Below are positions 2,935 through 5,730 of a DNA stretch of 11,987 nt, in pieces; within the stretch, counting starts at the first letter, position 1, and every line of letters starts with the position of its first letter. Origin of the DNA: Methylococcaceae bacterium (GTDB taxonomy: Bacteria; Pseudomonadota; Gammaproteobacteria; Methylococcales; Methylomonadaceae); NCBI GenBank assembly GCA_013140465.1, contig JABFST010000353.1, positions 1-11,987 on the forward strand, written 5' to 3'. The notes under the pieces were generated by a model. That model made no database searches, was not told where the DNA came from, and worked only from the letters and a program-made list of their open reading frames with translations. Position numbers and translations under genes: made by a program.

Positions 2935-3007
2935 AAATAACTGGGGTCAAAGTAAACTTAAACAAATAACTGGGGTCAAAATAACTGGGGTCAGAGTAAA
3001 CTTAAAT
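2935..3007 (+). repeat. Head-repeat array of AAATAACTGGGGTCA
   Basis: Three units start with AAATAACTGGGGTCA at 2935, 2964 and 2979. The first is 29 bases, the second is cut to 15 bases, and the third runs through GAGTAAACTTAAAT. The left end is constant and the right end varies. The core GGGGTCA(G) is shared with the arrays at 3466 and 3751. Confidence 0.85.
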
Positions 3008-3443: not shown

Positions 3444-3465
3444 GTATCATTAATGCCTAACCCTG

Positions 3466-3540
3466 AATAACTGCAATAACTGCAATAACTGGGGTCAATA
3501 ACTGGGGTCGAATAACTGGGGTCAGAGTAAATTTAAATTT
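3466..3540 (+). repeat. Head-repeat array of AATAACTGGGGTCAG
   Basis: Units start with AATAACTG at 3466, 3475, 3484, 3497 and 3511. The first four are cut after 9, 9, 13 and 14 bases. The fifth continues through GGGGTCAGAGTAAATTTAAATTT. The array lies about 45 bases upstream of the RAYT start codon and belongs to the same repeat family as 2935-3007. Confidence 0.85.
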
Positions 3541-3585: not shown

Positions 3586-3750
3586 ATGGCTAGACTGACC
3601 CGTGCGTGTCCAATCGGAATTCCTCAGCATGTAATCCAACGTGGCAATAACCGACAGGTCTGCTTTGCCAACGAGCAAGATTTCGCAGCTTATGCGGGTT
3701 GGTTGAAAAGCTACTCAAAGAAATACCAAGTAGATATTCATGCCTGGGCG
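3586..3750 (+). pseudogene. RAYT (REP-associated Y1 transposase), N-terminal remnant
   Basis: The first 55 residues, beginning MARLTRACPIGIPQHVIQRG and continuing through NNRQVCFANEQDFAAYAGWL to VDIHAWAE, match the conserved start of RAYT proteins (Y1/IS200-like transposase fold). These act on single-stranded REP hairpins. In intact members HAW is followed within a few residues by the catalytic motif NHVH. Here the sequence switches to an array of GAAAGCCCGGGGTCAG units at 3751, so the metal-binding histidines, the catalytic tyrosine and the rest (usually 150-300 residues in total) are absent. The frame stays open through the array to 3963, which would add a Gly/Pro/Ser-rich repetitive tail. 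No C-terminal RAYT remnant was recognised downstream. Confidence 0.8.
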
Positions 3751-3960
3751 GAAAGCCCGGGGTCAGGAAAGCCCGGGGTCAGGCCTTACGTTTCGGAAAG
3801 CCCGGGGTCAGGCCTCGGAAAGCCCGGGGTCAGGCCTTACGAAAGCCCGCGAAAGCCCGGGGTCAGGCCTTACGAAAGCCCGGGGTCATACGAAAGCCCG
3901 GGGTCAGAAAGCCCGGGGTCAGGCCTTACGTTTGACACAATACCTCAAGGGACCTTGGGG
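3751..3960 (+). repeat. Head-anchored array of GAAAGCCCGGGGTCAG
   Basis: Nine unit starts occur at 3751, 3767, 3796, 3818, 3841, 3851, 3874, 3892 and 3907. The first eight units are 16, 29, 22, 23, 10, 23, 18 and 15 bases long. Each reads from the same left end through part of GCCCGGGGTCAGGCCTTACG before the next head begins. The ninth runs on through TTTGACACAATACCTCAAGG into single-copy sequence. A tenth head (one base different) occurs at 4317. Some junctions carry one to three extra bases, such as CG. All three forward frames are open through the array. Confidence 0.9.
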
Positions 3961-4052
3961 TGAGGCGTTCGCAGTAACCCGTAAGTTGGTTTCGCCGACA
4001 GGCAAACCGTCATAAACGGAGCGCATGAATTTGATTGTTACATTGATTTTTA

Positions 4053-4081
4053 CTAAGCTGCGCTTAGAGTCGTGCTAAAAT
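4053..4081 (+). promoter_or_regulatory. Possible brnT promoter/operator (copy 1)
   Basis: The inverted repeat CTAAGC-TGC-GCTTAG (4053-4067) stands 8 bases before an extended -10, TGCTAAAAT (TAAAAT at 4076-4081). TA antitoxins commonly bind such palindromes over their own promoter. No good -35 is seen. The same arrangement recurs in copy 2 at 4463-4491. Confidence 0.35.
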
Positions 4082-4146
4082 CGGCCTATCACGCAAGACA
4101 GAACCAGTCATGGGTTTCGCCTAATGTAGCAATAATAACTATTTAT

Positions 4147-4315
4147 ATGCATTTTGAATGGGATACTAAAAAAGCTGCATCAAACCATCGTAAACATGGC
4201 GTTACTTTTGAAGAGGCAACCAGTGCATTGCGCGATGTATTTTCAGCTACCGCTCACGATCCTGATCATTCGGAAGATGAAGAACGATTTGTGACATTCG
4301 GCATTTCTTCCCAAG
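4147..4315 (+). pseudogene. Truncated BrnT toxin copy
   Basis: It encodes the first 56 residues of the BrnT protein found complete at 4557, ending at GISSQ. It then reads into the repeat head and its flank, giving an unrelated 36-residue tail to a stop at 4425. It lacks the second half, including the IRIISAR region that carries active-site residues in the RelE-like BrnT fold, so it should be inactive. It arose from the 408-bp duplication and keeps its own leader, so it may still be transcribed into the intact operon. Confidence 0.9.
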
Positions 4316-4462
4316 CAAAAGCCCGGGGTCAGGCCTTACGTTTGACACAATACCTCAAGGGACCTTGGGGTGAGGCGTTCGCAGTAACCCGTAAGTTGGT
4401 TTCGCCGACAGGCAAACCGTCATAAACGGAGCGCATGAATTTGATTGTTACATTGATTTTTA

Positions 4463-4491
4463 CTAAGCTGCGCTTAGAGTCGTGCTAAAAT
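4463..4491 (+). promoter_or_regulatory. Possible brnT promoter/operator (copy 2)
   Basis: This is an identical copy of the inverted repeat CTAAGC-TGC-GCTTAG (4463-4477) and of TGCTAAAAT (-10 at 4486-4491), about 65 bases upstream of the intact brnT start. It would drive the functional toxin-antitoxin pair. Confidence 0.35.
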
Positions 4492-4556
4492 CGGCCTATC
4501 ACGCAAGACAGAACCAGTCATGGGTTTCGCCTAATGTAGCAATAATAACTATTTAT

Positions 4557-4829
4557 ATGCATTTTGAATGGGATACTAAAAAAGCTGCATCAAACCATCG
4601 TAAACATGGCGTTACTTTTGAAGAGGCAACCAGTGCATTGCGCGATGTATTTTCAGCTACCGCTCACGATCCTGATCATTCGGAAGATGAAGAACGATTT
4701 GTGACATTCGGCATTTCTTCCCAAGGACGTTTACTCACGGTATCGCATACGGATAGAGGCAATGCAATTCGAATCATATCGGCACGACTAGCAACAAATG
4801 CTGAGAGTAAAATTTATGAAAAAGGTTAA
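4557..4829 (+). CDS. brnT: BrnT family toxin, complete
   Basis: The 90-residue protein has the full BrnT pattern: FEWDTKKAASNHRKHGVTFE at the start, the acidic HDPDHSEDEERF (about residues 36-47), GRLLTV, and IRIISARLATNAE near the end. BrnT is a RelE-like ribosome-dependent or general ribonuclease that inhibits translation and is neutralised by the gene downstream. The usual SARKAT(R/K)xE is here SARLATNAE, losing basic residues, which could weaken activity (inference). The ATG at 4557 is preferred over an upstream in-frame start at 4482 because homology begins at MHFEWD. It overlaps the next gene by 14 bases. Its first 56 codons are duplicated at 4147. Confidence 0.9.
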   Translation: MHFEWDTKKAASNHRKHGVTFEEATSALRDVFSATAHDPDHSEDEERFVTFGISSQGRLLTVSHTDRGNAIRIISARLATNAESKIYEKG

Positions 4830-5058
4830 ACCAGAAATAATAGACGAACTTCGACCAGAGTACGAGCGGTCGGATTTTGGTAAGATCGTACGCGGAAAGT
4901 ATGCGAACCGAATTAAGGCGGAAACCAATGTGGTACTACTTGAGCCGGATATTGCGGAGGCCTTTCCTAATGATGAAGCGGTAAACAAAGCGCTTCGTTA
5001 TTTATTGGAGGTCGCAAAAACCTCAACCAGCCTAACCCAATCCAGCGGACTCCGCTAA
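4816..5058 (+). CDS. Antitoxin partner of BrnT (non-canonical, RHH-like)
   Basis: The 80-residue protein is made from the ATG at 4816; a GAGAG ribosome site at 4803-4807 is better placed for it than for the ATG at 4798. It contains FGKIVRGKYANRIKAETNVV, then LLEPDIAEAFPNDEAVNKAL. This is a widespread small-protein pattern next to TA toxins, in which a short strand followed by two helices suggests a ribbon-helix-helix-like fold. It is not the usual BrnA sequence. Overlap with brnT (ATGAAAAAGGTTAA) supports translational coupling. Its last residues (SLTQSSGLR) are encoded inside the attC-like site, suggesting the natural C-terminus was rewritten there. The role as antitoxin is inferred from position. 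Confidence 0.7.
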   Translation: MKKVKPEIIDELRPEYERSDFGKIVRGKYANRIKAETNVVLLEPDIAEAFPNDEAVNKALRYLLEVAKTSTSLTQSSGLR

Positions 5059-5203: not shown

Positions 5204-5491
5204 ATGATTAAGTTTGAGTGGGATACAATTAAGGCTGCAAGCAATCAGAAAAAATATGGCGTTTGTTTCGAAGAAGCCAAGTCCGTTTTTTATGACGAAT
5301 TTGCAATGCAATTTTATGATGATGGGCATTCGGAAGAGGAACACCGTTTCTTGATGCTTGGTTTTAGTTGTGAATCCAGAATGCTTCTTGTCTGTCACTG
5401 TGAACGCGAATCAGGCAATACGATTAGGATACTATCAGCCCGCAAAGCCACTAAACGCGAATGCAGCCATTACAAAGGTAACGTGCCATGA
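5204..5491 (+). CDS. brnT: BrnT family toxin (second locus)
   Basis: The 95-residue protein starts MIKFEWDTIKAASNQKKYGV and carries CFEEAKSVFYDEFA, DDGHSEEEHRFLMLGFS, LLVCHCERESGN and IRILSARKATKRE, the full family pattern including the basic C-terminal SARKATKRE. It should act as a translation-inhibiting ribonuclease. It differs clearly from the first BrnT, so it is a separate locus and not a local duplicate. Its stop overlaps the next ATG by 4 bases (ATGA). The BIME hairpin lies 31 bases upstream and may separate it from the upstream TA unit. Confidence 0.9.
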   Translation: MIKFEWDTIKAASNQKKYGVCFEEAKSVFYDEFAMQFYDDGHSEEEHRFLMLGFSCESRMLLVCHCERESGNTIRILSARKATKRECSHYKGNVP

Positions 5492-5730
5492 AAGCAGAAT
5501 ATGATCTTTCCCAAATGAAATCACGAAGAAACCCCTATGCTGCCAAGCTTAAGAAGTCGGTTACTATCCGATTGGGGGAGGATGTGGTCGATTATTTCAA
5601 AGAAATGGCGGAAGGCACTGGTGTGCCTTATCAAAGCCTCATCAATTTATACCTTCGTGATTGTGTGCGTCAGCATCGTACAATTGACATTTCTTGGCAA
5701 TCCAACTCAAAAGCCGTTTCAAACCCGTAA
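5488..5730 (+). CDS. brnA: BrnA/CopG-type ribbon-helix-helix antitoxin
   Basis: The 80-residue protein starts MKAEYDLSQMKSRRNPYAAK and contains KKSVTIRLGEDVVDYFKEMA followed by GTGVPYQSLINLYLRDCV. The pattern is a beta strand (VTIRL) followed by two helices, the ribbon-helix-helix DNA-binding fold of BrnA-like antitoxins. The N-terminal stretch likely wraps the toxin. It is translationally coupled to brnT by a 4-base overlap. Expected role: neutralise BrnT and repress the operon from the sequence upstream of 5204. The last ten residues after DISW look extra compared with relatives, though this is from memory. Confidence 0.8.
   Translation: MKAEYDLSQMKSRRNPYAAKLKKSVTIRLGEDVVDYFKEMAEGTGVPYQSLINLYLRDCVRQHRTIDISWQSNSKAVSNP

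Follow-up and report, generated by a model that had tools for sequence, protein, structure and literature searches.

Genes and repeats in the window

The window, by which we mean the whole stretch of 11,987 nucleotides analysed here, carries three ladders of shortened repeat copies, the beginning of a transposase gene and a partly duplicated brnT toxin gene (Table 1). The motif GGGGTCAG is present in all three ladders, the second of which lies upstream of the transposase fragment. The 55 codons of this fragment alone match nothing in Pfam or NCBIfam; a tblastn comparison with the transposase of another ladder locus, L176, gives 34% identity (E 1e-9) over 3586-3834.

Table 1. Features of the window and their coordinates
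Feature	Position	Strand	Description
Ladder A	2935..3001	+	TIR family 1; GGGGTCAG preceded by the head AATAACT; two units (29 and 15 nt); complete copy from 2979
Ladder B	3465..3535	+	TIR family 1; units of 9, 9, 13 and 14 nt; complete copy from 3510
TIRYT-like Y1 transposase fragment	3586..3750	+	First 55 codons; cut off by ladder C before the HUH motif
Ladder C	3751..3906	+	Eight short head-anchored units, TIR family 2 (GGGGTCAGGCCTTAC)
Ninth unit, 410 nt	3907..4316	+	TIR, intergenic DNA and first 56 brnT codons (4147-4315)
Terminal TIR copy	4317..4353	+	End placed approximately, by comparison with matching family-2 copies elsewhere in the genus
Complete brnT toxin gene	4557..4829	+	Start codon inferred; Pfam BrnT_toxin E 1.5e-26 for ORF 4482-4829

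Ladder C had been described in the initial annotation as ten copies of one head with right ends of different extent, and its unit lengths were recovered exactly from the sequence. The eight short units begin at 3751, 3767, 3796, 3818, 3841, 3851, 3874 and 3892 and measure 16, 29, 22, 23, 10, 23, 18 and 15 nt, respectively, followed by the unit of 410 nt. Their common start is GAAAGCCC, and all eight begin 8 nt 5' of GGGG. The ten starts are thus real, the tenth (from 4317) having A instead of G as its first base, but the copies are less uniform than proposed: the unit at 3841 is truncated inside the motif (GAAAGCCCGC) and that at 3874 deviates (GGGGTCAT). When up to 3 mismatches are allowed, the window contains 9 occurrences of the 16-mer where 0.06 would be expected by chance; its 7 exact occurrences in the host genome (507 contigs, 83% complete) are all inside the window. 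Since the units range from 10 to 410 nt and have one fixed edge, they lack the constant length of an ordinary tandem repeat (VNTR).

The long unit was said to carry half of brnT, and the first 56 codons are indeed found in it. The exact duplication spans 408 bp (3908-4315 versus 4318-4725, 100% identical), with the junction bases CA (4316-4317) after the first block. Its left edge lies at -7 from GGGG, or at -8 with one base changed, as in the short units, which supports the idea that a single process of fixed head and variable extent generated both the array (edges at -8) and the gene duplication (edge at -7). The brnT homologues of four relatives align with the window only from 4555-4557, that is from the gene start onward, and therefore cannot be used to date the duplication. 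Downstream, an 86-aa frame without Pfam match (4798-5058) follows the complete brnT, and a second brnT (5204-5491) precedes a BrnA-like antitoxin gene (5488-5730). GACCCC is absent from the window between 1158 and 5895, so that the TIR ends have no inverted partner there.

Relation of the repeats to TIRYT genes

The motif GGGGTCAG conforms to GGGGWSAS, which is partly shared by the terminal inverted repeats (TIRs) of genes named TIRYT by Di Nocera et al. (2013; PMC3733652); the passages cited from that account also describe dispersed TIR repeats and note TIR dimers and clusters. TIRYT genes are probably the same as RAYT subclass 2.1 (PMC6006769); they have TIRs, and that source, in the parts drawn on here, reports no REP-like sequences near the genes.

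Ladders precede open transposase genes at two loci, L176 and L017, the latter on a contig of 4.4 Mb. A third ladder, at L018, stands before a broken gene of 82 codons, which is excluded from the full genes for that reason. Inverted repeats flank the L017 gene on both sides. Both complete transposases contain the Pfam Y1_Tnp domain and fall below the NCBIfam cut-off for IS200; the cut-off for REP-associated tyrosine transposases is passed by L176 and not by L017. A C-terminal HTH, given as a trait of subclass 2.1 in the portion of PMC6006769 consulted, may be present in L017 (HTH_23, E 4.5e-4, below the curated cut-off), and L176 has no HTH_23 match. Among the open genes of relatives, HUH is found in 86/89 and Y---NP in 83/89. 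The window's own TIR family (GGGGTCAGGCCTTAC) is represented at L394, where a gene start that extends to the contig end follows a two-unit ladder. These data support assignment of the window ends to a TIRYT/TIRtron-like element rather than to a canonical IS200. As a separate observation, a long ladder of units of about 14 nt, more regular than the others, stands before an HTH-type TIRYT gene at L402 (G555:C85).

Occurrence in the host genome, relatives and other taxa

The array of the window is one case of a recurrent pattern, in which ladders of shortened copies stand before the ends of TIRYT elements. A search for three GGGGTCAG motifs at most 30 nt apart, head and tail being left free, hit 42 places, spread over 11 of the 61 genomes searched (the host genome and relatives), while the reversed pattern returned none in the same 61 genomes. 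The places found are alike in design and differ in their heads. The general pattern is independent of the window locus. An 18-mer from the family-1 end is present in 15/35 genomes of the genus; genome contigs searched with the window's own head doubled gave no match.

Two other lines of evidence were set aside. All 11 genomes with arrays match Y1_Tnp, but so do 38 of the 50 others, which makes co-occurrence per genome weak evidence. A cross-phylum scan (at least 118 loci) yielded a mixture: among the matches listed, 48/120 arrays have uniform spacing and 72/120 do not. Since many of these arrays resemble simple or coding repeats, the scan served purely as a source of examples.

Several loci show peculiarities of their own. 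Unrelated genomes contain series of 7-mers resembling GGGGTCAGGGGTCA (L138, L145, L160, L215, L248 and similar), which seem to be a repeat phenomenon of another kind. At L026 (G036:C1, about 101-390), ladders occupy both arms of a short palindromic element with heads outward, one arm carrying many nearly identical 14-nt units in a row. L107 (G000:C278) has a family-2 ladder of ten motifs and, nearby, a second, shorter version that repeats a large part of it and gives the impression that the entire ladder was duplicated. At L045, L098, L102 and L125, ends of family 1 or 2 run into a third type of motif (AATCAATGGGGTCAG / AATCAATGGAGTCTGACC), which suggests nested insertion of different TIR families.

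Fixed left edge and variable right edge

To compare the two edges, the last complete copy of each array was taken as reference and all maximal exact upstream matches were collected with no start assumed; matches wholly within preceding units were excluded. As 9-mers were too noisy, 10-, 12- and 14-mers were used. The genus set comprised 60 regions around most, not all, of the listed copies, together with a few other arrays. With 12-mers, a match was obtained for 47 of 91 references. Of 110 matches, 78 start at -12 to -6, with a peak at -8 (sd 1.0), and these same 78 stop anywhere from +3 to +80 (sd 10.3). The remaining 32, as judged by eye, are mostly continuations after a mismatch, palindromic partners and dispersed repeats.

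The edge is also apparent when single columns are compared within and between arrays: identity among copies of one array is close to background at -9 and reaches at least 0.98 from -7 inward. With the 7-nt head required, which forces identity from -7 inward, identity is 0.34 v 0.26 at -9, 0.73 v 0.31 at -8 and 1.00 v 0.77 at -7. With only GGGGTC required, the respective values are 0.44 v 0.35, 0.76 v 0.32 and 0.98 v 0.73. Among copies that have no unit close upstream (n=51), the information content drops from 1.54 bits at -6 through 1.00 bit at -7 to 0.19 bits at -8; the within-array cliff between -8 and -9 thus adjoins the limit of element conservation.

Unit lengths and match to the terminal copy

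Parsing of the genus set, in which the 7-nt head was required, gave 104 units. Most of them (95/104) measure 8-29 nt, with a tail toward longer units such as the 53-nt unit of L081. Of the four longest intervals, those of 120, 177 and 195 nt match the terminal copy over 11-21 nt only and are probably separate neighbouring copies. The fourth (L105, 131 nt) matches it over 87 nt and resumes after a mismatch; by reading, this unit takes in the beginning of a transposase gene, a broken one, and so parallels the unit with brnT.

The units match their local terminal copy closely: 62/104 fit it with no leftover base and 85/104 with at most 2, and the family-2 set, the window included, gives 22/32 by the latter measure. 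The initial annotation had pointed to extra bases at some junctions; such insertions do occur, but the 62 units just mentioned fit without any. It had likewise asked if the last copy is always the longest. This is usual and not universal, as internal units of L107 and L391 exceed the match length of the terminal copy.

These figures bear on a model of serial insertion, in which every unit is a separately transposed TIR fragment that landed on the tip of an existing TIR. The end of a transposase element is a plausible preferred target, and the internal units of L107 and L391, being longer than the terminal copy, need another source. Against this stand the 85 units that match the local terminal copy and the base at -8, which varies between sites yet is common within arrays. 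We regard serial insertion as very improbable.

Unit number at shared sites and in complete plasmids

The same site could be compared in two genomes in seven cases (left-flank identity 91-100%). Three pairs are alike and four differ by whole units. At one site (L114/L079) genome G033 has one unit and G011 three; at another (L088/L109) G011 has one and G033 about five. At the other two (L089/L110 and L095/L111) the difference is a single unit, placed immediately next to the complete copy. The differences are unpolarised, so that loss of units is possible as well as gain. Should units be added beside the complete copy, the youngest one of the window would be that of 410 bp, a 100% match to the terminal copy next to it.

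Ladders were also found in two complete plasmids, three units in Skermanella mucosa pSM-2 and two in S. rosea pSR-1, in both cases before the transposase gene and with different head bases. The L176 transposase had matches in 20 plasmid records, of which 12 were examined, and the L017 transposase in 12 records. Among the 12 L176 records examined, GGGGWSAS is absent upstream in eight regions: seven from Paraburkholderia, which have no such ladder, and one from Pseudoalteromonas. Regions from Rhodospirillum and Iodobacter have a single GGGGWSAS copy each.

The doubt that the array might be an artefact of assembly, raised at the outset because long reads were wanted for it, has its ground in the window being one contig of a fragmented metagenome genome (507 contigs). 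It is countered by the differing unit numbers at sites shared by two genomes and by the ladders in complete plasmids; moreover, the same geometry is found on megabase contigs (that of L017 and a 3.7-Mb contig at L320). An artefact is accordingly hardly credible.

TIRYT genes of the class and phylum

A search with the L176 transposase gave matches in 133/276 genomes. From these, a class set of 90 TIRYT genes was assembled from 30 returned loci and 60 chosen among those listed, most partial matches being passed over. GGGGWS occurs within 250 bp upstream of 60 of the 90 genes and is missing there from 30. Of the 60 motif-bearing genes, 23 have a tandem pair in contact with some motif and 21 have one in contact with the last motif; 39 have no pair at the last motif. 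In 20 shuffles that kept the last motif, the mean number of genes with a pair was 0.5 and the maximum 2, versus 21 observed. The 37 matches located at the last motif begin at a median distance of 8 nt upstream of it (sd 2.2), their heads being unrelated, and end at a median of 7 nt past the motif start (sd 8.1, range 1-41). The 3' TIR, reverse complemented, behaves alike: the motif is present in 53 cases and a tandem pair in 17/53, with starts mostly near 8.

The column test is blunter in the class set (22 arrays), with 0.21 v 0.23 at -9, 0.53 v 0.32 at -8 and 0.74 v 0.39 at -7, and has an unexplained excess at -11 (0.50 v 0.27). A second TIRYT set came from a search of the phylum with the L017 transposase (matches in 81/249 genomes). 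Its 30 returned loci have the motif in 22 and an array in 8 of these 22, with a start mode of 8; 7/17 matches lie outside 6-10. The opposition of fixed left and variable right ends, initially noticed in one array, thus holds with the same edge in relatives and across TIRYT genes.

IS200 genes served as control (loci L255-L284, of which 18/30 were scored). An upstream direct pair was found in 0/10 IS200-like genes, and GGGGWS upstream in 1/10; Y---NP genes within this control set have an upstream pair in 3/8. Of the movers first considered, IS200 itself consequently finds no support. The broader guess of RAYT-type single-strand chemistry gains plausibility from the association of ladders with TIRYT genes.

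An alternative also put forward earlier is slippage or jump-back of replication at a structured or hard-to-copy GGGG site, which would require no transposase. Short tandem repeats with small changes at junctions are typical of slippage, and each complete unit has a G-run. When five ends were folded, however, none was better than its shuffles (z -1.54 to 0.80), so that the notion of a structured GGGGTC site was abandoned. The edge lies about 8 nt from the motif regardless of the head and at both TIRs. Furthermore, direct pairs within 130 bp are found upstream of 46/90 class-set genes and inside only 6/90 of the same genes. We therefore consider slippage improbable.

A model of ladder formation

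We propose that the arrays are footprints of TIRYT, a TIR-associated tyrosine (Y1) transposase of the HUH type, acting at the end of its own element by nicking, extension and rejoining. As judged from sequence patterns, we hold this to be probable, if by no means assured. In a first step, TIRYT would make a single-strand cut at a complete TIR, about 8 nt to the 5' side of GGGGWSAS, the tyrosine keeping the 5' end. Host polymerase would then extend the 3'-OH into the TIR, usually by 8-30 nt and occasionally by hundreds, while the old strand is displaced. Finally, the held 5' end would be rejoined to the new 3' end rather than trimmed. Because of rejoining without trimming, the copied stretch would be exactly duplicated, with a fixed left edge and a variable right edge. 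Repetition of the cycle would let the ladder grow beside the complete copy, and one long extension would have taken half of brnT.

That the offset of about 8 nt is independent of head sequence and recurs at both TIRs points to an enzyme cutting at a measured distance. As the base at -8 is common to only 73-76% of pairs, the cut may lie at -9/-8 or at -8/-7. The enzyme would act in the window from elsewhere, since the transposase gene there is broken. Parts of the chemistry have precedent in the related system treated in PMC8266576: in the sections cited, HuH cleavage yields a 5'-phosphotyrosine and a 3'-OH that can prime replication, through strand transfer the 3'-OH can also release the tyrosine link, and both activities might help REPs spread. 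From these elements we infer nick, short extension and rejoining as ordered steps that could yield the observed geometry, with TIRYT as the putative agent.

Several observations count against nicking, extension and rejoining: the incomplete sharing of the base at -8, lower still in the class set, where -11 stands out as well; the 30 of 90 class-set genes that lack the upstream motif and the 39 of 60 that have it but no pair at the last one; the unpolarised differences at shared sites; the broken transposase gene of the window; the long internal units of L107 and L391; and a small excess of microhomology at the junctions (mean 0.73 nt v 0.43 nt expected). The latter suits end joining and thereby the main rival model, collapse of a replication fork at the same nick. 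A fork would meet the TIRYT nick, and the broken end from -8 would be joined by host repair to a variably extended or resected sister, with the same products. On the other hand, 30/62 junctions have no microhomology, and most units are shorter than 30 nt, which would be below what resection is expected to leave. Fork repair appears unlikely to us, though it is to be taken more seriously than the alternatives weighed above.

Comparison with known systems

The closest relatives of the ladders are TIRtron / TIRYT elements themselves. The account of these (PMC3733652), in the parts relevant here, contains no fixed-edge ladders, unequal units or co-duplicated neighbours, and the window copies differ from them as single ends beside a broken gene. 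REPs, BIMEs and REPINs are associated with GTAG-RAYTs (TnpAREP), which are related enzymes; by the portion of PMC8266576 drawn on, the products of a TnpAREP nick are a 3'-OH and a 5' end linked to tyrosine. REPs are GTAG-tagged hairpins, whereas the window ends have no significant fold and share the constant motif GGGGTCAG. Y1 single-strand chemistry is common to IS200/IS605 as well, from which the ladders differ by the lack of upstream pairs and the scarcity of upstream GGGGWS in the controls given above.

The TAACTGA repeats of Beggiatoa (PMC4679880) have a similar heptamer and form short direct repeats, also in sulfur bacteria among others. In the text of that source, sets of the heptamer stand near start codons and neither "transposase" nor GGGGTC occurs; these repeats were set aside, their motif as described being another one. 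No earlier description of head-anchored ladders was found in the open-licence literature, subscription papers being outside the scope of the search.

We regard it as about evenly balanced whether TIRYTs are generators of sequence-anchored tandem duplications, which form ladders at their own ends and sometimes duplicate neighbouring genes without transposing. If so, bacteria would have a route of gene duplication that does not need pre-existing repeats and is anchored by a motif beside the element. The ladders would then document in DNA sequence that both element ends are cut at an almost fixed base, in many genera, and a direct biochemical prediction for TIRYT follows from this. Such a process could also offer an origin for clusters of REP-like repeats.

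Tandem duplication by a displaced strand is familiar from flap-nuclease mutants, in which a displaced 5' flap is joined back and a tandem duplication of the displaced length results. The ladders differ from these flap-ligation duplications in that a sequence motif determines where they begin, presumably owing to a transposase that holds the 5' end.
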